Virus record (IMG/VR): IMGVR_UViG_3300043331_002226 | Span: 1 to 33,798 of that record | Length of the DNA stretch: 33,798 nt | Origin: a virus | Direction: 5' to 3' (one strand) | In this document: in pieces, positions 2,819 to 32,739 of the stretch | Layout: each line of letters begins with the position of its first letter | How positions within the stretch are numbered: the stretch's first letter is position 1 | Notes under the pieces: model-generated | Seen by the model: only the letters and a program-made list of their open reading frames with translations | Told to the model about the DNA's origin: nothing | Databases searched by the model: none | Made by a program: the position numbers and the translations under genes

Positions 2819-2847
2819 ATACTATACAACCTAATGGTTGTTGTCAA
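2819..2847 (-). promoter_or_regulatory. Promoter with palindromic operator for the higBA operon
   Basis: On the minus strand a perfect TTGACA (2847-2842) is followed at 17 bases by TAGTAT, or at 15 bases by TATAGT. Between them lies the palindrome ACAACC-TAAT-GGTTGT (2826-2841), perfect over 6+6 bases. An operator in the spacer is the usual HigA autorepression layout. The transcript would begin about 30 bases before the toxin start codon. The site lies between the divergent toxin-antitoxin and early phage genes and could influence both. Confidence 0.65.
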
Positions 2848-2870
2848 GGGAGTGGGACGGGTGGGCGTCG

Positions 2871-3941
2871 GTGGCTGAGCGGACGGCGATCGGGTGGACG
2901 GACCACACCTTCAACCCCTGGTGGGGCTGCGTCGAGGTCTCGCCCGGGTGTGATCACTGCTACGCCCGGACGGACGCCACGCGCTACGGGCACGCCGTCT
3001 GGGGCGCGAAGGCGGACCGGCGCTTCTTCGGGGAGAAGCATTGGGCCGAGCCGCTCAAGTGGAACCGGAAGGCGGCCGAGGCCGGCGTGCGGCGCCGCGT
3101 GTTCTGCGCCTCGATGGCGGACGTGTTCGAGGAGCAGATCTCCTCGTCGGAGACCGGGCGGGGCATCGACGACGCGCGTCGGCGGCTCTGGGACACGATC
3201 CTGTCCACGCCGTCGCTCGACTGGCTGCTGCTGACGAAGCGGCCGGCGGGGATGCGGCGGCTCCTCCCGCCGGCCATTGCCGCGCTCGTCAATGTCTGGC
3301 CGATGGTGACGGTCGAGAGCCAGGACTATACCTGGCGGATTGACGAGCTGCTGCGGCTCGATTGCGCGGGGCCGCGCGGCGTGTCCTACGAGCCCGCGCT
3401 CGGGCCGGTGGAGTTCCGGCGGTGGCTGAGGCCGGGCCACGACTACTTGCACGGCGACGGGGACTCGACCGTCGATTGCGCTCGTCGCTGCGGTGCGTGG
3501 GCGGGCCCGTCCCGATCTGGCGGGCCGACCGGCAAGGAGCCTCCCGAAGTCGGCGGCTTCGGCCCGTGTCCGAAGGCACCCCGGCTCGACTGGCTCATCG
3601 TCGGCGGCGAGAGCGGCCCGGGGGCGCGGCGGTGTCAGGTGCGGTGGATTCGCTCTGTGCGCGATCAGTGCAGGGCGGCCGGCGTCCCGCTCTTCATCAA
3701 GCAGATGGGCGCCGCCGTCGTAGACCGCAACGACGCCGGCTTCACGGGCTGGGACGACGGCGACGGCTGGCCGGATGGCACGGAGATCGAGGAGCACATC
3801 AACGGCTATCGCGAGGACTACCAGGGCGCCCCGGTTCGAGTGAAGCTTCGCGACCGCAAGGGCGCCGATCCGTCCGAGTGGCCCGCCGATCTCCGGGTGC
3901 AGGCGTTTCCGACACACGAAAGGAGCGTGACCCATGGGTGA
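2871..3941 (+). CDS. DUF5131 family (phage Gp37/Gp68-like) three-Cys protein
   Basis: A 356-residue protein. Near the start it reads IGWTDHTFNPWWGC, then a C-x6-C-x2-C cluster ending CDHCYA (about residues 20-32), the hallmark of DUF5131/Gp37-Gp68 phage proteins. These are radical-SAM-like in pattern but biochemically poorly defined. A later segment, LDWLIVGGESGPGARR, then LFIKQMGAA, is also characteristic of the family. GTG 2871 is preferred over the upstream TTG because similarity starts at AERTAIGW. Family members often accompany a three-Cys-motif partner (TcmP), but none was seen here. It opens the rightward early operon and overlaps the next gene by 8 bases. Confidence 0.8.
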   Translation: MAERTAIGWTDHTFNPWWGCVEVSPGCDHCYARTDATRYGHAVWGAKADRRFFGEKHWAEPLKWNRKAAEAGVRRRVFCASMADVFEEQISSSETGRGIDDARRRLWDTILSTPSLDWLLLTKRPAGMRRLLPPAIAALVNVWPMVTVESQDYTWRIDELLRLDCAGPRGVSYEPALGPVEFRRWLRPGHDYLHGDGDSTVDCARRCGAWAGPSRSGGPTGKEPPEVGGFGPCPKAPRLDWLIVGGESGPGARRCQVRWIRSVRDQCRAAGVPLFIKQMGAAVVDRNDAGFTGWDDGDGWPDGTEIEEHINGYREDYQGAPVRVKLRDRKGADPSEWPADLRVQAFPTHERSVTHG

Positions 3942-5476: not shown

Positions 5477-5630
5477 GCGCGCGGCAGGGGGGCCGCGTTC
5501 GACAGATGAGTGATCGAGGACGCCTTTGGAAACAGAACGGCCAGGATACCTCTCGGCACCCTGGCCATCTCCGTCATCCGGTCCCGACGTCGGGAACCGG
5601 GAAGCGCGTGACACCCGCCCCGAACGTTAC

Positions 5631-5655
5631 CCTTGACTCCTCTGACGAGTCAAGG
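5631..5655. repeat. Perfect 9-bp inverted repeat
   Basis: CCTTGACTC at 5631-5639 and GAGTCAAGG at 5647-5655 are exact reverse complements separated by 7 bases. The repeat lies just downstream of the tRNA-like 3' end on the minus strand and could be its processing or termination structure, a protein-binding site, or part of an attachment site. Confidence 0.7.
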
Positions 5656-5679
5656 GGTCAAGGCGAGGCAATGGGCGTT

Positions 5680-5785
5680 TGGACGCGCTGGCGGGATTCG
5701 AACCCGCACCCCGAAGGCGGAGGTCGGTGGTTTGGGTGTCACGCGCCTCCCGGCACCTTTCGGTCCACTCCAGATTGTCAGCGCT
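5680..5785 (-). tRNA. tRNA-like element with canonical 3' half (possible tRNA-Arg CCG, remnant or att core)
   Basis: On the minus strand the T arm is canonical: GCGGG-TTCGAAT-CCCGC (5707-5691). It is followed directly by a 7-base acceptor strand CAGCGCG, a U-type discriminator and an encoded CCA (5680-5682). A partner acceptor strand AGCGCTG lies at 5785-5779 and pairs at six of seven positions. The best anticodon arm has a CCGA/TCGG stem (5727-5711) with loop CTCCGCC, which would give U33 and anticodon CCG (Arg), but position 37 is not a purine and the variable loop is short. No normal D arm is visible, and the element is about 30 bases too long. It is therefore noncanonical: a degenerate phage tRNA, or tRNA sequence captured at an attachment site. 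The T-arm and acceptor end are secure; the rest is not. Confidence 0.35.
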
Positions 5786-5867
5786 GGCCCCAGTATAGTG
5801 ATGCCTCCCGACTCCGCAACCGCAAATGTGTCCCACCTTGGAAACGTCCGTCGGGGTCTCTGCCACG

Positions 5868-6878
5868 ATGAGTGACCGGGGTCTCTACCGGGGCGTCCAC
5901 TCCAGCCTCCTGGACGACCGGGAGTTCCGCCAACTTGAGCCCGAGGCGCGGCACGTCTTCCAGGACCTGCGGCTGGGCCGGGAAGCCGGGCCCGGCTGCA
6001 TCTGGCAGATGGACGAGCCGACCCAGGTGTCGCTCCTCGCCGGACGGACGGGCTACCGGCCGGCGGTGGTCCGACGGGCCCTCGATGCCCTGACCCGCAA
6101 GCCGACTCCCCAGAAGCCTTGGCTCTTCCGCGACCTCGAGGCGGGCGTGTGGTGGGTCCGGAACGGTCTGCGGCACGATCCGAACATGAACTTGACCAAC
6201 CCAACGCAGCTTGTGTCTGTCGTGCGTTCCGTCCTCGGACTACCGCCGAGCCCGCTGGTGGAGAAGTTCTTGGATTACTACGGAATCCGGAAGGCCCATG
6301 CTCTAGCCCATCGACGGGGCCTCAAGGCCCTATCCCATGGGGTCGCGCGCGCGCGCGCGTCCGAAGACCGAGAACGAAGACCGAGAACGAGAACGAAGAC
6401 CGAGAACGAAGGGGGGAGTGCAGGGGGGGGGCAGGCTGCTGAGACGCCGAAGGCAGCCCAGCCCACCGGGTCGGCCCCGGGTCACTCTCGTGACCAGGGC
6501 GGAGCGGACCCGAGCCCCTGCGCCGTCGAGCAGGGCAGCATCGGGGGCGACACGGCGTACCAGTGCTCGGTGACCGGGCGGACGTGGTCGCAGGGGTCCA
6601 CGGTCCCCGCGCGGTGTCCCGGGCATCCCTCAGCGAACGGACCGCCCGGGGCGAGACAGGGAACCGAACGGCTCGATGCGGTCTTGTCCCGCGTGCTGGC
6701 GGACCAGCCGAAGCCGGCCGGACCGGACGCGAACGACGCGCCACCGACAGGGCCGGGCGGCCCGGACGCCGTAGGTGTCCAGGCGCCCGGCCGGCCGGGG
6801 GTTGCCGGGCCCCTGGGATCCGCCGGCCGGAGCGGGTCCGCGCGGACGCCCGGTTCGATCAGGTCCCATGAGCCGTAA
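5868..6878 (+). CDS. Putative phage replication initiation protein, winged-helix N-terminus
   Basis: A 336-residue protein. The N-terminus (MSDRGLYRGVHSSLLDDREF, then LEPEARHVFQDLRLG) resembles phage replication or DnaD-like winged-helix proteins that begin with a statement on conditions and cell-type helices. The fold continues to about residue 145 (FLDYYGIRKAH). After that the sequence is low-complexity, first Arg/Glu/Thr-rich and encoded by short DNA repeats, then Pro/Gly-rich, with one CPGHP motif. ATG 5868 is preferred to the upstream GTG because similarity starts there. It follows the early genes and precedes terminase, as replication genes often do. Lambda O is a parallel for an origin within an initiator gene. 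The C-terminal half has no recognisable domain. Confidence 0.5.
   Translation: MSDRGLYRGVHSSLLDDREFRQLEPEARHVFQDLRLGREAGPGCIWQMDEPTQVSLLAGRTGYRPAVVRRALDALTRKPTPQKPWLFRDLEAGVWWVRNGLRHDPNMNLTNPTQLVSVVRSVLGLPPSPLVEKFLDYYGIRKAHALAHRRGLKALSHGVARARASEDRERRPRTRTKTENEGGSAGGGQAAETPKAAQPTGSAPGHSRDQGGADPSPCAVEQGSIGGDTAYQCSVTGRTWSQGSTVPARCPGHPSANGPPGARQGTERLDAVLSRVLADQPKPAGPDANDAPPTGPGGPDAVGVQAPGRPGVAGPLGSAGRSGSARTPGSIRSHEP
6344..6431 (+). repeat. CG tract, 13-bp iteron-like repeats and G-runs inside the initiator gene
   Basis: An alternating CG run of 16 bases (6344-6359) is followed by three exact copies of CGAAGACCGAGAA at 6362-6374, 6375-6387 and 6394-6406, with a partial CGAGAA unit between copies two and three and a CGAAG remnant after. 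Then come G6 (6411-6416) and G9 (6423-6431). The repeats sit mid-gene in the putative initiator, as lambda ori iterons do. They could instead be a simple coding expansion (Arg-Thr-Lys-Glu). The DNA repeats are certain; origin function is inference. Confidence 0.6.
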
Positions 6879-7443
6879 ACGGCTAATACCAAAGGCCCAA
6901 GCGCCACCGGAGGCGGAGAAGCCGGCCGGCCGGGATGTTCCGCTGCCGCTCGTGACGCGCTTCCAGGTCGCCGAGTGCCTCGGCGCGGACCCGACCACGG
7001 TGGCGAAATGGGAGCGGGCGGGCCTGCCGGTCGCCGAGCGAGGGTCCGGCGGCCGGGCGTCGAAGTACGCGCTCCCCGCGGTGATCCGCTGGTACGTGGC
7101 GCACGAGCGCGCGAAGTACGAGCGGGAGACCGGGACGCTGAACCTCGACGACGAGCGGGCGCGGCAGGCGAGGGCCCAGACACGCAAGACCGAGCTGGAG
7201 ATCCGCCGCCGGGAGGGGGAGCTGGTGGCCGTCGCCGAGGTCACCGCGCTGTGGAGTGAGCTCCTGGGGACCCTGCGAGCCACGCTACTGGCGCTCCCCG
7301 CCGCCCTCGCGGCGCCGCTGGACGCGACGGCCAAGGACAGCGGACCGCGGGCCGTGGAAGCGCTCCTGCGAGACCGGATGACGAGCGCGCTCCACGAGCT
7401 GGCCCGGTGGCGCCCGTCCGTCGCGCCCGAGGCCTCGACGTGA
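6868..7443 (+). CDS. Terminase small subunit, Nu1 family
   Basis: A 191-residue protein with a winged-helix DNA-recognition domain at about residues 28-75 (VTRFQVAECLGADPTTVAKW, then RASKYALPAVIRWYV), typical of lambda Nu1. It is followed by a charged helical segment (ERARQARAQTRKTELEIRRR) and a C-terminal region for large-subunit contact. It recognises the packaging start site and stimulates the large subunit. ATG 6868 overlaps the end of the upstream gene by 11 bases. The stop overlaps the terminase large-subunit GTG. The Nu1-GpA order supports a cos-type packaging system. Confidence 0.8.
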   Translation: MSRKRLIPKAQAPPEAEKPAGRDVPLPLVTRFQVAECLGADPTTVAKWERAGLPVAERGSGGRASKYALPAVIRWYVAHERAKYERETGTLNLDDERARQARAQTRKTELEIRRREGELVAVAEVTALWSELLGTLRATLLALPAALAAPLDATAKDSGPRAVEALLRDRMTSALHELARWRPSVAPEAST

Positions 7444-9293
7444 GCGTGGCGGTCGTGAAGCTCGCCGAGGTCCTCGCCGTCCTCGAGCCCCCGCCGCCGC
7501 TCACGGTCAGCCAGTGGGCGGACGCGGAGCGCCGGCTGCCGATCGGCAGCAGTGCCACGCCGGGTTCGTGGCGGACCGAGCCCTACCAGCGCGGGATCCT
7601 CGACAGCGTCCACGAGGGTGCCGAGACCGTCGTGCTGATGGCCTCCAGCCAGCTCGTCAAGACCGAGTTCTTGCTCAACCTGATCGGCTACACGATCGCC
7701 CACGACCCGGCGCCGATGCTCCTCGTCGAGCCAGCCGAGCACCTGGCCAAGCGCATCGCGAAGAACCGGCTCCGCCCCATGTTCGCCATGACCCCGGCGG
7801 TCCGGGCCCGCGTCGGGGACGGCCGGGGCCGCCAGAGCGGCGCGACGTTGCTCCTCACGCGCTACCCTGGCGGCCACCTGGTCCTCGCCGGCGCGAACAG
7901 CCCCACGCCGCTCGCCTCTGATCCGATCCGGATCGTCCTGTGCGACGAGATCGACAAGTACCCGCCCTACGTCGGCGACGAAGGCGATCCGCTGGCCCTC
8001 GCGATGAAGCGCACGACGACGTTCTGGAACCGGCTCCACGTGCTCACCTCGACGCCGACGATCAAGGGCATCTCGCGCATCGAGGCGTGGTTCGGGCTCA
8101 GCGACCAGCGCCGGTACTTCGTGCCGTGCCCGCGGTGCGCGGTGGCGTTCGTCATGGCGTGGCAGCACGTCCGGTGGGAGGGCGGCGCCGCCGGCGACCC
8201 AGAGACGGCGCACTTGGTCTGTCCGAGCTGCGGCGCCCGTATCGCCGACCACGAGCGGCTCGGCATGATCGCGCGGGGCGCGTGGCGCGCGACCGCGCCG
8301 TCCCGCGGGGTGATCGGGTTCCACGCCTGGGAGATCCTGTCGGCGCGGGCCACGCTGGCCCGGATTGTCCGGAACTTTCTCGCGGCCCGGGTCCGAGGCG
8401 TCGAGGCGCTCCGGGAATGGGTCAACCAGACGCTCGGCGAGACCTGGGAGGAAGCCGGTGAGCAGGTGCGGCCAGACAGGCTCCTGCTGCGACGCGAGGC
8501 GTACTCGGGTGAGGAACTTCCCGCCGGCATCGTCTGCCTCACGGCCGGCGTCGACGTCCAGGACGACCGGCTCGAGGCGCTGGTCGTCGGGTGGGGCCTG
8601 GGCGAGGAGTCTTGGGTCATCGAGGCGCGGACGCTGCCCGGGGATCCGGCGCGGCCCGAGGTGTGGCTCCAGCTCGATGCGGTCCTGACCACGCCGTACC
8701 GACACGCGGACGGCTCCCAGCGGACGATCCTGGCGCTGTGCTGCGACACGGCCGGACACCGGACGGACTACGTCTACGACTACGTGAAGCGCCGGCAGCA
8801 TCTCCGGGTCTTCGCCACGATCGGCCGCGACGGGGAGGACCGCCCGCTGGTCTCCGCCCCGAGCGAGAAGCGGAGCGGGCGAGATCCGCGCCCCGTGCGG
8901 CTCTACACGATCGGCGTCGACCTGGCCAAGGCGCTGCTGGCGTCCCGCCTCCAGCTCACCGCGAAGGGGCCCGGCTATGTGCACTTGCCGACGGGCGTCG
9001 ACGAGGAGTTCCTGGCGCAGCTCACCGCGGAGAAGCTCGTCACCCGCTACACGCATGGCGTGCCGCATCGGCAGTGGATCCAGACGCGGCCGCGGAACGA
9101 AGCGCTTGACACGTTCGTGCTCGCGATCGCGGCGCTGCGGCTGCTGAACCCTCGGCTCGAGATCATGGCTCAGCTCGCCGCCCAGCAGGCGCCGGCCGGG
9201 GCCGCGGCGCCCTTGGCGGTGTCGACGTCGAGCTCGCTCGAGCCCGCGCGGTCGCCGGAGCGGCGGGTCAGTCAGAGCCGGTACCTGTCGTGA
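7440..9293 (+). CDS. Terminase large subunit, GpA family
   Basis: A 617-residue protein, near the lambda gpA length. The N-terminal ATPase begins with LTVSQWADAERRLP and has a Walker A-like MASSQLVKTEFLLN and Walker B IRIVLCDEIDKYP. A zinc-ribbon pair CPRC and CPSC follows at about residues 230-265. The nuclease half has TAGVDVQDDRLEALVVGWG, LCCDTAGHRTDYVYDY and a closing DTFVLAIAALRLLNP. It powers DNA translocation into proheads and cuts the concatemer, acting with the small subunit and portal. GTG 7440 overlaps the upstream stop (GTGA). The GpA family generally makes cohesive ends. Confidence 0.92.
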   Translation: MSVAVVKLAEVLAVLEPPPPLTVSQWADAERRLPIGSSATPGSWRTEPYQRGILDSVHEGAETVVLMASSQLVKTEFLLNLIGYTIAHDPAPMLLVEPAEHLAKRIAKNRLRPMFAMTPAVRARVGDGRGRQSGATLLLTRYPGGHLVLAGANSPTPLASDPIRIVLCDEIDKYPPYVGDEGDPLALAMKRTTTFWNRLHVLTSTPTIKGISRIEAWFGLSDQRRYFVPCPRCAVAFVMAWQHVRWEGGAAGDPETAHLVCPSCGARIADHERLGMIARGAWRATAPSRGVIGFHAWEILSARATLARIVRNFLAARVRGVEALREWVNQTLGETWEEAGEQVRPDRLLLRREAYSGEELPAGIVCLTAGVDVQDDRLEALVVGWGLGEESWVIEARTLPGDPARPEVWLQLDAVLTTPYRHADGSQRTILALCCDTAGHRTDYVYDYVKRRQHLRVFATIGRDGEDRPLVSAPSEKRSGRDPRPVRLYTIGVDLAKALLASRLQLTAKGPGYVHLPTGVDEEFLAQLTAEKLVTRYTHGVPHRQWIQTRPRNEALDTFVLAIAALRLLNPRLEIMAQLAAQQAPAGAAAPLAVSTSSSLEPARSPERRVSQSRYLS

Positions 9294-11480: not shown

Positions 11481-11710
11481 GCGTCGCTCCGCGGAGCCCG
11501 AGTGAGCTGCTCCCTCTGGACGCCCTGGCACAGCGACTCCGGGTCAGCCCGAAAACCGTGAAGCGACTCGCCCGAGAGTCCGGGTTCCCCCTGTTCCGGC
11601 TCACCCCGACCAGCCTTGCGCTCTACGCGTTCTGGCCCGAAGTCGAGCGCTGGATCCGGAAGCACGCGACACCCTGTCAAGTGGACAAGTCGGGACACCG
11701 CCGACCCTAG
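11477..11710 (+). CDS. Small HTH protein, excisionase/MerR-like fold
   Basis: A 77-residue protein with a helix-turn-helix unit LDALAQRLRVSPKTVKRLAR followed by FPLFRLTPTSLALYAFWPEV and WIRKH, the pattern of HTH_17/excisionase-type domains. GTG 11477 overlaps the portal stop. A DNA-binding protein between portal and protease is unusual in lambda-like clusters; it may regulate late genes or be a displaced excisionase. No integrase is visible in the window. Confidence 0.55.
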   Translation: MSVAPRSPSELLPLDALAQRLRVSPKTVKRLARESGFPLFRLTPTSLALYAFWPEVERWIRKHATPCQVDKSGHRRP

Positions 11711-11727
11711 GCGGGACACAGCCCGCC
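11710..11727 (+). terminator. Short GC hairpin after the HTH gene
   Basis: GGCGGG (11710-11715) and CCCGCC (11722-11727) form a 6-bp stem with a 6-base loop, immediately after the TAG of the HTH gene. CTTCCC follows rather than a T-run, so it is at best a weak terminator or RNA processing site. Confidence 0.35.
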
Positions 11728-11764
11728 CTTCCCGGTTCGCGCTCGAACCCACCCCATACCCTGT

Positions 11765-11793
11765 CTCGCGTGAGCACCACCCGTCCACGCGAG
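11765..11793 (+). promoter_or_regulatory. Hairpin in the leader of the protease gene
   Basis: CTCGCGTG (11765-11772) and CACGCGAG (11786-11793) are perfect 8-bp inverted repeats separated by 13 bases. The hairpin ends 3 bases before the GGGGAGGGG ribosome site (from 11797) of the capsid protease. It could set expression of the protease-scaffold relative to upstream genes, or bind a protein. Confidence 0.4.
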
Positions 11794-11810
11794 TCCGGGG
11801 AGGGGCGGAT

Positions 11811-12866
11811 GTGAAGACGCGGACCTGGTATCGCATCGTCGCGCAGGCCGACTCCGACGTCGCCGAGCTGTTCGTGTTCGACAGCATCGGGAAGTCCTTC
11901 TGGGACGACAGCACGGTCACGGCCAAGCAGTTCGTCGCCGACCTTGCCGCGCTGCCCGAGTCGGTGCAGACGATCCGCGTCCGGGTGAACAGCCCGGGCG
12001 GCGACGTCTTCGACGCAGTGGCGATCGCCAACGCGCTGCGTGCGGAGCGCACGGAGAAGGGCCGAACGGTCGAAATGTCGATCGAGGGGCTCGCGGCCAG
12101 CGCGGCCACGATCATCACGATGGCGGGCGATCCGATCCGGATCGTCAAGAACGGGCTCGTGATGGTGCACAACCCGCACGGCTTCGTCTACGGCACGGCC
12201 GAGGACATGCGGAAGATCGCCGGCCTGCTCGACAAGGTGCGGGACACCATCGTGGCCACCTACCAGTGGCACTCGTCGCTCGACGCCGAGACCCTCGTCG
12301 CGCTCATGGACGAGACGACCTGGATGACTGCCGAGGAGGCGATCGAGAAGGGCTTCGCGTCGGAGCTCGTCGAGGACGCCGCGCAGGCAACCGCCCAATT
12401 CCGGCCGGCCGCGCTGGTGCCGCTGGGGGAGATCCCGGCGAAGCACCGCCCGGCGGTGGATGCCTGGACCGCCAAGCCGGCGGCGCCGCCCGAGCCGGCC
12501 AAGCCGGCGGCGGCGAAGGACGTGCTCGCCCGGTGCAAGGCGGCACACCTTCTCGAGCTGGCGGAGCCGCTCCTTGACGCTGCCCTGTCGCTCGATCAGG
12601 TCGACGCTCGGCTGGCGGCCGCGACGGAGATCCGCGCGCTCTGCACCACGGGCAAGTTCCCCGAGCTCGCCGCCGGGTACATCCAGGCAGCGACGCCAGC
12701 CGCCGTCGTGCGGGCGCATCTCACGACCCTCGGGGCGAAGTTCGACGCGATCGAGATCGACAGCCACGTGCGGCCGGATCCGGAGCGGACCGCCGCCACA
12801 CGGGCGGCCCTGAATCCCGCGGCCATCTACGCCGAGCGGAATCAGCTCGGCGCCCGGAAGGAGTGA
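11811..12866 (+). CDS. ClpP/S14-type head maturation protease with C-terminal scaffold-like region
   Basis: A 351-residue protein. The protease fold spans about residues 1-200: VRVNSPGGDVFDAVAIANAL, the nucleophile-Ser segment IEGLAASAATIITMAGD, the His segment VMVHNPHG, and MDETTWMTAEEAIEKGFASE. These match phage ClpP-like prohead proteases. A Pro/Ala linker follows at about 225, then a helical segment (AAHLLELAEPLLDAAL), likely to be a scaffold-type domain as in lambda C/Nu3. The enzyme processes portal or capsid-associated proteins during assembly. GTG 11811, behind GGGGAGGGG, is preferred over a distant upstream ATG. The stop overlaps an alternative GTG of the next gene. Confidence 0.85.
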   Translation: MKTRTWYRIVAQADSDVAELFVFDSIGKSFWDDSTVTAKQFVADLAALPESVQTIRVRVNSPGGDVFDAVAIANALRAERTEKGRTVEMSIEGLAASAATIITMAGDPIRIVKNGLVMVHNPHGFVYGTAEDMRKIAGLLDKVRDTIVATYQWHSSLDAETLVALMDETTWMTAEEAIEKGFASELVEDAAQATAQFRPAALVPLGEIPAKHRPAVDAWTAKPAAPPEPAKPAAAKDVLARCKAAHLLELAEPLLDAALSLDQVDARLAAATEIRALCTTGKFPELAAGYIQAATPAAVVRAHLTTLGAKFDAIEIDSHVRPDPERTAATRAALNPAAIYAERNQLGARKE

Positions 12867-27215: not shown

Positions 27216-27602
27216 CTACGGGGACGCGCCGGGCGGTGGGCCGAGGACCCAGACCCTGACATGCGGACCCCCCGTGATCCCCGGCGTGGTCGTCACGATC
27301 GCAGACCCCTGGAAGATCCCGCAGCTCACGGCAACGCCGCCTCCGAATCTCGGGTCATAGGCGTCCCACTCTCGGACGAAGATCGGCCCCGAGAGGTCCA
27401 GCACCCACGCCCGGACTCGTGGCGGGGCGCCGGTGGCGCGGGCGGTGATCACCCAGGGGAAGCAGAACGCCACGTTGACCCCGCCCGCGTCCTCGGGGTC
27501 GAAGGCGAACCACTCCAGGAAGAGTTCTGGGGCCTGTGCGTCCGTCGGCATCGGCGCGAGCCCCACGAGCAGCGCGAGAACAAGACCGAGACGCCACGCC
27601 AT
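27216..27602 (-). CDS. Secreted hypothetical protein, candidate moron
   Basis: A 128-residue protein with a signal peptide (MAWRLGLVLALLVGLAPMPT, cleavage near DAQA). The mature part has Trp- and Asp-rich strands (EWFAFDPEDAGGVNVAFCFP) and GPHVRVWVLGPPPGAS. GGGAGG precedes the ATG on the minus strand. Its orientation opposes all surrounding late genes, and it ends 3 bases from the upstream gene's stop, the usual look of a lysogenic-conversion or moron gene. No promoter or terminator could be assigned confidently. No family recognised. Confidence 0.6.
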   Translation of the reverse strand: MAWRLGLVLALLVGLAPMPTDAQAPELFLEWFAFDPEDAGGVNVAFCFPWVITARATGAPPRVRAWVLDLSGPIFVREWDAYDPRFGGGVAVSCGIFQGSAIVTTTPGITGGPHVRVWVLGPPPGASP

Positions 27603-27646
27603 GGAAGCCTCCCGAGGGGATGGATGGGGTCTCGTCAGGGTACACC

Positions 27647-28102
27647 ATGAGCTCCAGCCTCCGCGCCCGCCTGCTTGCCCAGTTCGAGGCCGTCGAGGGC
27701 TACCGCCGGTTCCCGTATCGGGACACCGAGGGCGTCCTGACGATCGGCATCGGGCGGAACCTGGAGACCAAGGGGATCAGTCACCCCGAGGCGGTGGGCC
27801 TGGCCGAGAACGACCTGGACGACGCGATCGAGGCGGTCGCGGCGCGGTGGCCCTGGACGGGCAGCCTGGCCGAGGCGCGCCTGGCCACCCTGATCGAGAT
27901 GTGCCTGAACCTCGGGCCGGCCGGGCTCGCCGACTTCCGTCAGATGTGGGCGGCGCTGCGCGGCGGCGACTTCGAGCGCGCGGCGGCCGAGATCCTCGAC
28001 AGCGACGCGGCGCGGTCGCCCGACGCGCCGGGCCTCCGCACGCGCTACCAGCGGCTCGCCCGCCAGATGCGGGCGGGCACCTTTGACAGGGAGGACCCAT
28101 GA
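27647..28102 (+). CDS. T4-type lysozyme (GH24-like endolysin)
   Basis: A 151-residue protein with the active-site pattern E-8-D-5-T: FEAVEGYRRFPYRDTEG then VLTIGIGRNLE, the classic T4 lysozyme family signature. The remaining helical domain has LIEMCLNLGPAGLADFRQM. It has no signal peptide, so it needs a holin. It degrades peptidoglycan for host lysis. ATG 27647 is close behind the moron gene. The next gene's ATG overlaps its stop. Confidence 0.88.
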   Translation: MSSSLRARLLAQFEAVEGYRRFPYRDTEGVLTIGIGRNLETKGISHPEAVGLAENDLDDAIEAVAARWPWTGSLAEARLATLIEMCLNLGPAGLADFRQMWAALRGGDFERAAAEILDSDAARSPDAPGLRTRYQRLARQMRAGTFDREDP

Positions 28103-28630: not shown

Positions 28631-29301
28631 CCATCGATCTCCTGCTCTTCATCGGCGGCGTCCTCGGGGCGCTCGCCAACCGGCTGGCCGGGGCGAACCC
28701 CACGCGCTCGTGGGCCACGGTCGGCGAAGTGGCGGTGTCGGGCGCCATCATGGTCGGGCTCGTGGCGCTCGGCCTCGTCCCGGCCGAGTGGCGCGCGGCG
28801 ATGGAGGCCAACCCCTTGCGCGTCGGCCTCTTCGCGTTCGCGGCCGCGTTCCTGATCGGCCCCGGGCTCATCACCCTCGGGAAGAGCTTCTTCTACCGGC
28901 TGACGCCGAAGAACGGGAACGGGGACAAGACGAGCCCGGGGGTGAAGCTGGGGGGGCTGCTCCTGGTCGTGGCGCTCCTCGGGACCGCGGCGTGCGGCAC
29001 CGCGAAGGGGCTCTTCGACAGCGGGCCGCCGATGGTCTCCGCGCCGCGGACCGACGTGGAGAACGCCCGGGTCCGGTTCGCCCGGGTCCTGGGGAAGATC
29101 GAGCAGTGGGCCGAGGGCAAGTGTACGGCGGGCGACCTGACCAAGGACGAGTGCCGCCGGGCCCGCGAGGTGGTGGCCCAGATCGAGGCCGCCAACGCCG
29201 CCTACGAGAAGAGCGTGACGGCCCAGGGCGGCACGATGAACCTCGAGCCGCTGATCGGGACCCTGGAGAAGCTGCTCCCGCTGTTGCTCGGGGCGCTGTG
29301 A
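28627..29301 (+). CDS. Membrane protein with holin-like N-terminus and internal lipobox
   Basis: A 224-residue protein with membrane helices near residues 4-17 (LLLFIGGVLGALAN), 35-52 (VAVSGAIMVGLVALGLV) and 65-85 (VGLFAFAAAFLIGPGL). After a short basic linker comes LLLVVALLGTAACGTAKG near 115-130, which looks like a second signal with a lipobox (TAAC), then a helical soluble region and a hydrophobic C-terminal end (IGTLEKLLPLLLGAL). It may be a fusion of a holin-like module and a lipoprotein, or one protein with late topology. ATG 28627 overlaps the upstream stop. Confidence 0.5.
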   Translation: MTIDLLLFIGGVLGALANRLAGANPTRSWATVGEVAVSGAIMVGLVALGLVPAEWRAAMEANPLRVGLFAFAAAFLIGPGLITLGKSFFYRLTPKNGNGDKTSPGVKLGGLLLVVALLGTAACGTAKGLFDSGPPMVSAPRTDVENARVRFARVLGKIEQWAEGKCTAGDLTKDECRRAREVVAQIEAANAAYEKSVTAQGGTMNLEPLIGTLEKLLPLLLGAL

Positions 29302-29657
29302 TCGCGCGCCTCCTCGTCGCCCTCCTCGCCTGTTGGACGGCCCACGTCGTCGGTGTGGAGCGCGTGATCGACGGGGATTCCGTGGTCCTCGAGCTGGCGA
29401 TCTGGCCGAAGGTCGTCGTGACGGAGACCGTCCGGGTCTTGGGCGTGGACGCGCCCGAGCGGGCCGACCTCCTCGCGTGGCGGAAGGCGCGCGGCTACAC
29501 CGAGGAGTGGCTGCGGACCTCGGGGACCACGACGGTCCGGGCGTGCAAGCGAGATAGCTTCGGGCGGCTCTTGGGCACCGTCGTGAGCCAGACCCACGGC
29601 GACCTCGCCGCCGCGCTGATCACCGCCGGCCACGGGCAGCCGTACGAGCGGCGATGA
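29298..29657 (+). CDS. Secreted staphylococcal nuclease-like protein
   Basis: A 119-residue protein with a signal peptide (MIARLLVALLACWTAHVVGV) and the SNase/thermonuclease core: ERVIDGDSVVLEL, then VRVLGVDAPERADLL with the Arg and Glu catalytic residues, and DSFGRLLGTV with the second catalytic Arg. The conserved C-terminal ending LITAGHGQPYERR is present. Such enzymes cut DNA and RNA. In the lysis region it may act on extracellular or periplasmic nucleic acid, or be a moron. GTG 29298 overlaps the preceding stop; the ATGA junction with the next gene is also present. Confidence 0.75.
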   Translation: MIARLLVALLACWTAHVVGVERVIDGDSVVLELAIWPKVVVTETVRVLGVDAPERADLLAWRKARGYTEEWLRTSGTTTVRACKRDSFGRLLGTVVSQTHGDLAAALITAGHGQPYERR

Positions 29658-29885: not shown

Positions 29886-29921
29886 ACAAGAACGGCCGAG
29901 CACCGAGGGGCACTCGGCCGT
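29886..29921 (-). terminator. Terminator between late genes and the leftward cluster
   Basis: ACGGCCGAG (29892-29900) and CTCGGCCGT (29913-29921) form a perfect 9-bp stem with a 12-base loop. On the minus strand the stem is followed by TCTTGTTTCTC, a T-rich tail, as in a rho-independent terminator for genes to the right. On the plus strand the following bases are not T-rich, so rightward termination is less certain, though the strong stem could work in both directions. Confidence 0.65.
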
Positions 29922-29930
29922 CCCCGAGAC

Positions 29931-30107
29931 CTACCGTGAGGGCTGCTTGCTATCGCTCGGCTGTCCTTGCTGTGGCGGCGGCGCCGGCCGGTTCTCCGGG
30001 GTGCCCTTGATGGATTCCGTGATCTGAATCCGCCCGGACTCCAGGAGTACCTGCCGCACCGCCGTCTCGCTCTGGGTTTGAGTGAGGGCTTCGCTGACCT
30101 TCTTCAT
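29931..30107 (-). CDS. Small hypothetical protein, leftward cluster
   Basis: A 58-residue protein, MKKVSEALTQTQSETAVRQV then LLESGRIQITESIKG and a Pro/Gln-rich tail (PAPPPQQGQPSDSKQPSR). A Gly-rich GGGGGG element lies upstream of ATG 30107. It begins 25 bases after the Ntn hydrolase stop and ends just before the terminator, so it is likely the last gene of that transcript. Function unknown. Confidence 0.5.
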   Translation of the reverse strand: MKKVSEALTQTQSETAVRQVLLESGRIQITESIKGTPENRPAPPPQQGQPSDSKQPSR

Positions 30108-30132
30108 GGGTGCCCCCCAGGTTGCTCTTAGT

Positions 30133-30969
30133 TTACTCCGCTTGGCCGGGGTGGTGCAGCCTCTTTCCGGGGAGGAACGAGATGCCTGGGTCCGGGGCCA
30201 TCTGTAGGATCATGACGTCAATCGGACCCCCACAGGCTGGGGTGTCTGGGAGGAAGCGATCCATCTCGACCTGAACCTTGGCCAGAAACACGGCGAGGTC
30301 AACGGCGTCCTGGATCGGCATCCCTGGTACGCTGCTCAGTTTGTCGATCGGCCGGAGCACGCCGAGCGATGTGGTCTTCTGGGCGACGGCCGTCAGGTCG
30401 ATCCCGACCGTCTTCGCCACGGCGTCGAGGATCCCCGGATGATATCCGTAAAGCAACGTATAGACCTCGGCGAACGCACCTTCCAGCCAGATGCCCCGCT
30501 GCCCCGACAGGGCTTCCGACGTTGTCTTCTGCGCGTGCTCAAGCGTCACGCGCCACAACCGTGGTCCAGCACCATCGGCCGTTGATGGGAGACCCAAGAG
30601 TATCGTGGGGCCCGGCCACTGGTCCTTCGGTACCGGCGTCTTCGACCAGTGCTCCTCATTCAGCTTTGCCATCTTTTCGACCAGCTCGCCGATCTGCTGA
30701 TCCTGGGTGGCTGGGGAGTCGACCAGGGGGATCGCCTGTCGTTGGATGAAGTCCGTGGCGGCGCTCGGTCCGACGTTCGCGTGGCCCGCGACCATCGCCA
30801 TCAGAAGCCGGTTGCGGTCATGAGCCACCTTCGTGGCATTGTCGTACGTCTGCTCGACCCAGTTCGGCGTGCCGTCGGGGTTGAGCCCGGCCACACCTCG
30901 AGTCGTCACCTTGCTGTCGGCAGCGAAGACGAGGGCGGACTCCGTCTTGACGGCCACCGCAATGGTCAT
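30133..30969 (-). CDS. Proteasome-superfamily Ntn hydrolase
   Basis: A 278-residue protein that begins MTIAVAVKTESALVFAADSK. After removal of Met, Thr1 is the N-terminal nucleophile and the Asp in AADS is at 17, exactly as in proteasome beta and HslV proteins; a Lys in TKV (position 46) could be the Lys33 equivalent, with an insertion of about 13 residues. Further fold-matching segments are LLMAMVAGHANVGPSA, TILLGLPS followed by PRLWRV, and IWLEGAFAEVYTLLYGY. No membrane or signal segment. It may be a self-compartmentalising or solitary peptidase, distinct from Anbu/HslV in length. The start has no clear ribosome site. It precedes a small gene and a terminator; no ATPase partner is adjacent. 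Confidence 0.7.
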   Translation of the reverse strand: MTIAVAVKTESALVFAADSKVTTRGVAGLNPDGTPNWVEQTYDNATKVAHDRNRLLMAMVAGHANVGPSAATDFIQRQAIPLVDSPATQDQQIGELVEKMAKLNEEHWSKTPVPKDQWPGPTILLGLPSTADGAGPRLWRVTLEHAQKTTSEALSGQRGIWLEGAFAEVYTLLYGYHPGILDAVAKTVGIDLTAVAQKTTSLGVLRPIDKLSSVPGMPIQDAVDLAVFLAKVQVEMDRFLPDTPACGGPIDVMILQMAPDPGISFLPGKRLHHPGQAE

Positions 30970-31324
30970 GGTGGGAGGCGCCCTGGCTCCACAGTGGGGC
31001 GAGAATAGCCCAGGTCTCTCCTCGTTGACAACCCGGGGTCAGCTGCCGAGGCGCTCCTCCGGCGGCGTGATCTTGAACGCCTGATGGGGCATCCTCAATG
31101 GACTCGCCTTTCACCGACGCGGCCCCGACGATGGCGTCCCATCGTATCAGCATCCTCATGCCCTTCCACGCACCCGGGACGTCCTTGAACTCACCGTCCT
31201 TCACCGTCGACACCGTTTCAACTTCAATCCAGACGCCCGCCTTCGGCCATTCGCCACGCACGATGCCGAAGACGTAGTTATTCCCCCGAGTGGAGATGTA
31301 GATGCTCTCGCCCTCAAGATACAT
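30818..31324 (-). CDS. Hypothetical protein with possible C-terminal frameshift
   Basis: The open frame has 168 residues, starting MYLEGESIYISTRGNNYVFG with a GGAGGAAGG ribosome site. A convincing protein portion runs to about residue 78 (GMRMLIRWDAIVGAASVKGE). After about base 31092 the frame becomes low-complexity and runs 150 bases into the Ntn gene. A one-base shift near there would give RMPHQAFKITPPEERLGS and a stop at 31039, a more natural end before the Ntn promoter. A sequencing or real indel is suspected. Otherwise it would be a long overlap. No family recognised. Confidence 0.45.
   Translation of the reverse strand: MYLEGESIYISTRGNNYVFGIVRGEWPKAGVWIEVETVSTVKDGEFKDVPGAWKGMRMLIRWDAIVGAASVKGESIEDAPSGVQDHAAGGAPRQLTPGCQRGETWAILAPLWSQGASHHDHCGGRQDGVRPRLRCRQQGDDSRCGRAQPRRHAELGRADVRQCHEGGS
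31002..31031 (-). promoter_or_regulatory. Candidate promoter for the Ntn hydrolase gene
   Basis: On the minus strand TTGTCA (31031-31026) and TATTCT (31007-31002) are spaced 18 bases, five and four matches to sigma70 consensus. Transcription would start about 25-30 bases before the Ntn ATG, leaving a very short leader without a GGAG site. The element lies within the far end of the upstream frame, supporting the idea that that gene ends earlier. Confidence 0.4.
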
Positions 31325-31426
31325 GGGCCTTCCTCCACCTCCGGCCGCCGTTACCGCCGCCGCCGGCTCGGCCGTCCCGGCCCCTCCTCCCCCGCCACGC
31401 CGCCCTCAGTTCGGGCCGCCCCGGGG

Positions 31427-31663
31427 TCAGCGTGGCCCCGGGCGTTCCAAGCCCTCTTGCGCAGCGATCCCAGAGTCAACGATCTCTCGGAGCAGCGTCC
31501 GCGCCACCCGCTCCTCCTCGGTCCCGGAATAGTGGGTCGCCTGGCCAGTCTCGAGCCGCACGACGCCGCCCGGCAGAATCTCATAGGTGGCCGTATAGAC
31601 CTTGCCGTCCTTCTCCACAGTGACCCGACCTGTCGCCAGAACGCGCTCCTTCTTCCGCGCCAT
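31427..31663 (-). CDS. Small hypothetical protein
   Basis: A 78-residue protein, MARKKERVLATGRVTVEKDG then KVYTATYEILPGGVVRLET, a small beta-rich fold, and a helical end (ERVARTLLREIVDSG). GGAGGTGAAG precedes ATG 31663, preferred over an upstream start at 31729. It is co-directional with the Ntn region. Function unknown. Confidence 0.55.
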   Translation of the reverse strand: MARKKERVLATGRVTVEKDGKVYTATYEILPGGVVRLETGQATHYSGTEEERVARTLLREIVDSGIAAQEGLERPGPR

Positions 31664-31697
31664 GGTCTTCACCTCCAGTGTTGGGGGCTTCTTCCGC

Positions 31698-31997
31698 CTA
31701 TGGACGTCTGGGCCGCGGATCGACTGCATCGGGTAGGCACTTATACTCCCTGGATCTCGCCACCGTCGGCGTGATCGTATAGATCGTCATCCCCGCCCGA
31801 TAACTCGGGCTGCCGGCGCTCCGTTCGAAGGTGGGATACGGATCAAGGTAAGGACGGGCAAGGTCCAGACAGAGCTCCCGCGTCTCAGCGGCATCGATGA
31901 TGGCCCACTCGCGACCTGTGAACGAACCGAGGTCGACGCTCTCCAGCCAGAGCACCCAGGCCAACGCACCTAGTGCCGCGTGTCGGGACCCGATCAT
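31698..31997 (-). CDS. Small protein with short export-like N-terminus
   Basis: A 99-residue protein. The start ALGALAWVLWLESVD is hydrophobic, then EWAIIDAAETRELCLDLARP and YKCLPDAVDPRPRR at the end. I recall a similar WVLW...TRxEC...CLPDxVDPR pattern in small secreted proteins from Rokubacteria-like genomes, but cannot check it. The signal peptide looks short, so the true start may lie upstream in another frame. ATG overlaps a tiny upstream frame's stop. Confidence 0.5.
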   Translation of the reverse strand: MIGSRHAALGALAWVLWLESVDLGSFTGREWAIIDAAETRELCLDLARPYLDPYPTFERSAGSPSYRAGMTIYTITPTVARSREYKCLPDAVDPRPRRP

Positions 31998-32122
31998 CGC
32001 CGACGCCCTCTCGGCCGCCCCTCATCCGCCCGCCACGCGGCCCCGAGCTCGGGCGCGCCTGACCTCGCCTTGGGTGCGGCCGCGATCCCGCGAAGCACCG
32101 AGACCGTCATCTCAATCCCCAT
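31994..32122 (-). CDS. Very small basic reading frame
   Basis: A 42-residue frame, MGIEMTVSVLRGIAAAPKAR then SGAPELGAAWRADEG with a basic end. Its stop overlaps the ATG of the next gene (ATGA), the only positive sign. No clear ribosome site. Possibly the lost N-terminal section of the downstream gene. Confidence 0.2.
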   Translation of the reverse strand: MGIEMTVSVLRGIAAAPKARSGAPELGAAWRADEGRPRGRRR

Positions 32123-32237
32123 CAGGCGCCACAAAAGGAGAGGTGTGGATGTCGCGATCCAGGCCGCTAGAATGGGCCTCAGCTATGCCGGCAGTGACCA
32201 CCAGGAGCAGCTGAATGAAGGGAATGGACCGAACCAT
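32112..32237 (-). CDS. Small possible secreted peptide
   Basis: A 41-residue frame with signal-like MVRSIPFIQLLLVVTAGIAE then AHSSGLDRD. A GGGGGGAT element lies upstream of ATG 32237. It may be the separated signal peptide of the downstream 99-residue protein, with a frame break between, or an independent peptide. The rest of 32238-32352 holds nothing I can support. Confidence 0.3.
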   Translation of the reverse strand: MVRSIPFIQLLLVVTAGIAEAHSSGLDRDIHTSPFVAPDGD

Positions 32238-32352
32238 ACCAGATCCCCCCCGAGGGAAGGCTGGAGCGTGGGGCTGACTTTAGGCGCCGAGCGGCAGCGT
32301 GTCAAGCTTGGCTGGCTGCGCGGACGTACGTGATGGGTCCACCCGGACCGTC

Positions 32353-32739
32353 TTACACCTGCCGAGGCCTGCGCGCCTCGAGCGCGGCGCCGACCGTGAG
32401 GCTCAACATCTCGAGGAGCACCGGCTTCGACAGCACGGCGAAGACGCCGAACTCGCGCGCCTGCGCGAGGAGCGCCTCCGTGACGAGGGTTGCGCAGACG
32501 ATCCGGGAAGTCCGCGGCGCCGCGCCTTGCAGGGCGGCGAGGAGGTCCAAGCCCGTGAGGTCCGGCAGGTCGTAGTCGGCGACGACCACTGGGTAGGGGC
32601 GGTCCGCCAGTGCCTCGAGCGCGTCGGCCATCGTGCGCACGGCATCGACCTCGAACCCGGCGTGGCGAAGGCCCGTGCTGACGCGCTCGAGCGTGGCCGG
32701 GTTGGTCTCCACGAGGAGCACCCGGTCGGCGCCAGGCAT
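32353..32739 (-). CDS. Single-domain response regulator (REC)
   Basis: A 128-residue protein with VLLVETNPATLERVSTGLRH, a phospho-acceptor Asp in VVVADYDLPDLTGLDLLAAL, a T in CATLVTEALL and Lys in VFAVLSKPVLLEML. All receiver-domain positions are plausible, but the first acidic pair is E-T rather than D-D, so phosphorylation chemistry may be altered. No output domain. It follows the next gene by 10 bases in an operon. Typical chromosomal protein rather than phage. Confidence 0.8.
   Translation of the reverse strand: MPGADRVLLVETNPATLERVSTGLRHAGFEVDAVRTMADALEALADRPYPVVVADYDLPDLTGLDLLAALQGAAPRTSRIVCATLVTEALLAQAREFGVFAVLSKPVLLEMLSLTVGAALEARRPRQV

Follow-up and report, generated by a model that had tools for sequence, protein, structure and literature searches.

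A divergent proteasome-family Ntn hydrolase as probable prophage cargo, with a recurrent small gene downstream

A gene near the right end of the IMG/VR virus record IMGVR_UViG_3300043331_002226 (33,798 nucleotides, analysed in full and referred to below as the window) raises the question of what a proteasome-like hydrolase might do in a phage. The open reading frame (ORF) at 30133–30969 on the minus strand is intact, starts with ATG, encodes 278 amino acids and has a coding-like GC content by codon position. An earlier note, made from the sequence alone, had read it as an N-terminal nucleophile (Ntn) hydrolase beside a phage lysis cassette, and had considered a phage-encoded or prophage-cargo peptidase acting on host or virion proteins, or a defence component. 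The analysis described here points to a proteasome-family enzyme carried as accessory phage cargo, which appears to form a recurrent two-gene unit with a small ORF directly downstream.

The residues expected of such an enzyme are in place. The N-terminus (residues 1–19) reads MTIAVAVKTESALVFAADS, with Thr2 (codon at 30964–30966) directly after the methionine, and Asp18 (30916–30918) becomes position 17 of the mature protein if Thr2 is counted as residue 1. Lys47 (30829–30831), in the motif YDNATKV, takes the place of the proteasome Lys33. In an alignment of 58 non-redundant relatives, the nucleophile column contains Thr in 55 and Ser in 3, the Asp17 column contains Asp in 57 and Glu in one, and both the Ser that follows the latter (Ser19 in the window protein) and the Lys are invariant (58/58 each). 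The column of the oxyanion-hole Gly47 contains Gly in 42 and Asn in 12 of the 58, the alignment being uncertain there; the window protein has Gly (Gly62, 30784–30786). Because it is conserved across these relatives, the Thr/Asp pattern that had been noticed in the window sequence is not a chance occurrence.

It should be noted that the homology of the window protein was established by profiles and fold, and not by single-sequence searches, which gave no significant named family in Pfam, NCBIfam, PHROGs, PADLOC or the PDB (phmmer) and nothing significant among viral contigs and phages. Matches to a DegV protein (PDB profile search) and to DUF7316 were judged to be due to chance. The first relatives, with 25–29% identity (n = 4), came from bacterial genome contigs of Polyangiaceae, Chloroflexota, Mycolicibacterium and Dyella. 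With alignments of these four, more short forms came to light in viral contigs, while the Polyangiaceae relative led to long forms of about 400 residues in annotated phages and plasmids, one of which in turn reached 51 viral contigs. Profile comparison shows the two forms to be homologous (E 4.5e-35), and the long-form profile matches the Thermoplasma proteasome beta subunit colinearly (E 6e-4).

The AlphaFold model of the window protein is of medium confidence (predicted local distance difference test score, pLDDT, 74.9; predicted template modelling score, pTM, 0.75). A Foldseek search of the PDB with this model returned 391 matches at E ≤ 0.001 (best E 8.3e-7, probability 1.00). All 50 among the matches listed are proteasome subunits, the closest being those of 20S proteasomes, and the model has the two-sheet core flanked by helices of the proteasome topology. 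Template modelling (TM) scores of about 0.6 on the target are moderate, which the insertions and the medium-confidence model would lead one to expect. With the model of a long relative (pLDDT 85.3), the search again led to structures of the proteasome family, and the named matches in a viral structure library include phage proteasome- and HslV-like proteins. The proteasome fold therefore stands on conservation, profile matches and model retrieval taken together, and the window protein is, as far as a predicted structure can tell, a proteasome-family Ntn hydrolase. The fold proposed in the earlier note was thus borne out, and both the structural match and the conserved residues (Thr or Ser in 58/58, Asp in 57/58) are as it had anticipated. 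The model shows an extra helix and loop at about residues 189–218, i.e. an insertion between helices 3 and 4 (H3/H4), and no long insertion after H1/H2; the model of the long form has both an H1/H2 helical insertion and an H3/H4 insertion. In four of the loci collected (L016, L063, L065 and L078) the Ntn gene is split over two frames, apparently as broken copies or through sequencing errors.

Proteins of this kind are already known. A survey has described 22 new subfamilies of proteasome homologues, some of them in phages, and found nothing in their genomic context that points to a function (Fuchs, Alva and Lupas, 2021; PMC8665760). Among them are the PMI proteins, prokaryotic proteasome homologues with insertions and of unknown function, of which PMI-2 is described with an H3/H4 insertion and PMI-4 with H1/H2 and H3/H4 insertions and an occurrence in phages (PMC8665760). 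As described there, both share with the present family the Thr1, Asp17, Lys33 core, the lack of a propeptide and a broad bacterial distribution. The PMI-2 trait, an H3/H4 insertion without the H1/H2 one, is found in the window model, while the long H1/H2 insertion of PMI-4 is lacking in the window protein and present in the long relatives. Because of this difference between the models, the short form may be termed PMI-2-like and the long form PMI-4-like, in the sense of the described architecture. The window protein is set apart by its strong divergence, and the text of the survey makes no mention of a small partner gene downstream (PMC8665760). The novelty implied by the earlier note is reduced accordingly, because the subfamilies had been described in 2021; what is added is the association with a partner. 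In the literature searched, outside whose scope most subscription journals and preprints lay, neither a report of a small partner gene downstream nor a functional study of these proteins was found. A proteasome review citing the survey mentions neither phages nor Anbu nor connectase, and a paper on Streptococcus defence islands contains no proteasome-like proteins.

Other known groups are more distant. The relatives of about 400 residues match phrog_5990, a family of unknown function (E 2e-83 to 7e-152), whereas the window protein, which has no H1/H2 helical insertion, does not. HslV, Anbu and BPH have the fold and catalytic residues in common with the window protein; the latter, however, is larger, carries an insertion and does not retrieve them by sequence. 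Nor was an AAA+ unfoldase recognised, either of the HslU type near the gene or elsewhere, among those of the window ORFs that were searched against Pfam and PHROGs, in agreement with the earlier note.

The small genes around the peptidase gene had been listed in that note as neighbours of no known role. They are indeed present, and the one immediately after the peptidase gene seems to form with it a recurrent two-gene unit. In most viral loci a small ORF on the same strand directly follows the Ntn gene, the ends of the two often overlapping. With a partner defined as an ATG-initiated ORF of 45–80 codons starting between −40 and +30 nt from the Ntn stop codon, a definition set after a first inspection, such an ORF was found in 40 of 52 non-redundant loci, as against 25 of 320 control frames (Fisher p 6e-26); the controls were other open frames of at least 230 codons in the same loci, with no filter for true genes. 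The survey of neighbours across genomes that had been suggested therefore shows recurrence of the partner, and of lysis genes as well (see below). In five records the depositors had independently annotated such small genes. Purifying selection is indicated by ratios of non-synonymous to synonymous substitution rates (dN/dS) of 0.12–0.33 in the pairs close enough to measure; in other pairs synonymous sites are saturated, with the proportion of non-synonymous differences (pN) well below that of synonymous ones (pS). The partner proteins have a median length of 60 amino acids, are charged and contain almost no cysteine. They are alike only within subgroups and gave no convincing family match in Pfam or PHROGs.

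The window copy would be the ORF at 29931–30107 on the minus strand (58 amino acids), which begins about 26 nt past the peptidase stop codon. Its recurrent position, its coding-like codon-position GC and its likeness to the partner at one other locus, L042 (SETAVRQV versus SETAVRQI, shuffle frequency 0.016), make it a probable partner gene, not a proven one because the DNA is GC-rich.

The genes to the left of the peptidase are those of a phage. They run on the plus strand in the order RusA, gpA-type terminase, lambda-type portal, ClpP-type protease (11616–12866, between the portal and capsid genes and probably the phage's own head protease), capsid E, tape-measure protein (a weak match) and endolysin. 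The last of these, of the phage lysozyme type (27536–28102, plus strand, from Pfam and PHROGs searches), confirms that a lysis region is close by; the Ntn gene, however, lies outside the cassette, about 2 kb to the right. Like a few small ORFs there, it is on the opposite strand and so points leftward, antisense to the late genes. The GC content of about 0.72 drops to 0.63–0.68 across roughly 29900–32300, and then recovers; this patch, whose limits are approximate, is likely a cargo region at the right end of the prophage. Probable host response-regulator genes begin about 1.4 kb to the right of the Ntn gene, with a receiver gene at 32353–32739 (minus strand). Upstream of the Ntn gene, on the minus strand at 31002–31031 and 33 nt 5' of the start codon, is a promoter-like sequence (TTGTCA-18-TATTCT). 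The region has three such sites against 0.4 expected; the identification of this one as the Ntn promoter is suggestive only. Farther upstream on the same strand, there is a small ORF at 31427–31729 (100 amino acids, the real start of which may be internal), whose place in the peptidase unit would be conjectural. A search for tRNA genes in the window was negative, and an attachment site was not called because the direct repeats at the right end are short and imperfect.

Some further features of the window may be recorded. The ORF at 30818–31324 (minus strand) overlaps the Ntn start in another frame; its first 80 or so residues are protein-like and the rest is not, so that it is possibly a small or frameshifted gene upstream of the peptidase. 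Where the lysis region ends, the C-terminal part of the ORF at 28710–29657 (29300–29657, plus strand) looks by eye like a staphylococcal nuclease (thermonuclease) domain, the stretch reading VIDGDSVVLEL...VRVLGVDAPERAD...RDSFGRLLGTV. A DUF5131 protein is encoded at 2838–3941 (plus strand) in the early region of the phage (Pfam E 3e-59).

The family is thinly spread over many mobile elements. The long form is found in 9 of 398 genomes in a sample of one bacterial phylum, and other genome samples contain the family at a similar frequency of about 2–2.5%. The gene adjoins lysis genes in Stenotrophomonas phage BUCT708, Providencia phage PSTRCR_117lys and Streptococcus phage Javan85, lies near the end of the Streptococcus satellites Javan103 and Javan468, and is present on Enterococcus and Rhizobium plasmids. 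Endolysin or holin-like neighbours, recognised by eye and on clustered sequences, recur at further loci. In isolate-derived viral contigs it is enriched towards the ends (10 of 26 in the outer 20%, binomial p 0.023; Kolmogorov–Smirnov p 0.013). In Pseudomonas aeruginosa phage LESphi2 and its relatives a distant member, annotated as 'proteasome subunit beta' (WIL01424.1), sits at the phage end beside the integrase gene and runs antisense to the tail genes. It belongs to the same wider family by profile and tree, and differs in its length of about 340 amino acids, its separate clade and an extra segment after the first strands; it matches phrog_5990 weakly, and a 67-codon ORF downstream of it is a tentative partner. 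In the related phage F10, only 233 bp separate the last tail-region gene from the integrase gene, and the Ntn gene is therefore dispensable cargo in LESphi2-like phages. The antisense strand, the GC dip, the position and this empty site in a lineage with a distant relative support the view that the window gene is accessory phage cargo, so that the phage-encoded, prophage-cargo peptidase of the earlier note holds up well.

Several neighbours were noted at single loci or a few of them. An XRE-type regulator lies about 0.4–0.6 kb from the Ntn gene in three unrelated loci (L004, L005 and L052), followed in L005 by an ImmA/IrrE-like peptidase ORF; three loci being too few, this was set aside as a signal. 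Additional DNA flanking the tail genes in phage Ostro looks by its annotation like host DNA and is therefore uninformative about defence cargo. On the Rhizobium gallicum plasmid pRgalR602b, a ubiquitin-like conjugation cluster (5615–8121) with a multiubiquitin-domain protein and a ThiF-like adenylyltransferase is located about 1.4 kb downstream of the Ntn gene, and two other loci (L057 and L065) have similar IS1-like transposase ORFs downstream of the unit.

Our preferred reading, to which we give a probability of about 0.45, is that the gene encodes an accessory, regulated threonine peptidase, carried as cargo by a lambda-like prophage together with its small partner and used in conflicts between mobile elements. 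A Thr in second position makes a protein a good substrate for methionine aminopeptidase. Removal of Met1 by this enzyme would expose the Thr nucleophile with no need for a propeptide, and the equivalents of Asp17 and Lys33 would activate it. Oligomers are probably formed, although the additional H3/H4 segment makes it uncertain whether they take the form of a classical stacked double ring. The small polar partner, probably translationally coupled because its start overlaps the peptidase gene in many loci, could control the peptidase as an inhibitor, assembly factor or adaptor. The unit would be expressed in the lysogen, and its part in conflicts of mobile elements would most likely be protein degradation set off by a rival phage. 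Peptidase activity, oligomer, expression and partner role are thus what we infer for the window unit, and a role in conflict or defence is plausible from the genomic company that these genes keep. The more specific proposal of a new class of two-gene conflict system, in which a dedicated small and probably disordered protein gates or targets a proteasome-like peptidase, is tentative and on balance somewhat doubtful; it brings to mind, if loosely, the bacterial proteasome with Pup, here with a minimal protease and no unfoldase.

A number of observations weigh against the preferred reading. The defence component suggested by the earlier note is plausible from context, but the window protein has no PADLOC match, its relatives have only chance-level ones, and a published defence test was not found in the literature searched. 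No member of the tree is more divergent than the window protein, whose branch of 4.28 makes its placement unreliable, and which lacks two common family motifs (Gly-Tyr/Phe at 128–129 and a C-terminal W-x-x-R-K-x-Y), so that results from relatives may not transfer to it. The modelled H3/H4 insertion could prevent a proteasome-like assembly, and a repeat search did not locate the right attachment site of the prophage. The partner ORF is missing from some family members, and with the definition fixed it was found in only 5 of 14 loci of an independent sample of bacterial genomes (p 0.005 versus control), a slightly longer or more distant ORF being present in some of the misses. On mobile elements, then, the two genes are strongly associated, outside them less so, and the replicate should carry weight because the definition had been chosen after inspection.

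The same facts can be read in other ways. Connectase, a member of the same family, is a highly specific monomeric ligase (PMC8665760), and by analogy the window enzyme, instead of being a general protease, might process or ligate one dedicated substrate, possibly the small protein encoded next to it; insertions that may hinder ring stacking would fit. This is a serious rival but unlikely: the small proteins have no motif in common across subgroups that might serve as a shared site of cleavage or ligation, while connectase is archaeal, gives no sequence match and has a signature two-helix insertion between strands 3 and 4 that was not identified in the window model. It is quite unlikely that the gene is a host chromosomal peptidase lying just outside the prophage, at the contig end. 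Chromosomal relatives do exist, and the probable response-regulator genes 1.4 kb away, with no right attachment site found, would suit such a location; the low-GC patch, however, sets the gene apart from the probable host flank (GC about 0.72), and many relatives are on mobile elements.

A helper of the lytic cycle, trimming host or phage proteins for lysis or burst timing, would account for the frequent proximity to holin or endolysin genes, but is still less probable, since the gene runs antisense to late genes both in the window and in LESphi2-like phages, is carried by satellites and plasmids that have no lysis genes, and is missing in related phages. The end of a lysis region is a common site for unrelated cargo. 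That the window member is a degenerating, catalytically inactive copy, as its very long branch and two lost motifs might suggest, is very improbable for an intact ORF with its catalytic triad and coding-like codon-position GC. Scarcely credible, finally, is a protease for virion maturation or structure. A phage-encoded peptidase near late genes could invite this reading, and action on virion proteins had been among the earlier suggestions; it is rejected because a ClpP-type protease already occupies the head-protease position between portal and capsid, and because the family occurs on satellites and plasmids. The antisense orientation and the absence from syntenic phages agree with this.

If the preferred reading, an accessory peptidase unit for conflicts between mobile elements, proves to be true defence or superinfection control, proteolysis of the proteasome type would be added to the kinds of effector that phages are known to use against one another. 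The partner gene, and the carriage of the genes by prophages, satellites and plasmids, may in any case offer, through the two-gene unit, a direct handle on the function of these proteasome homologues.
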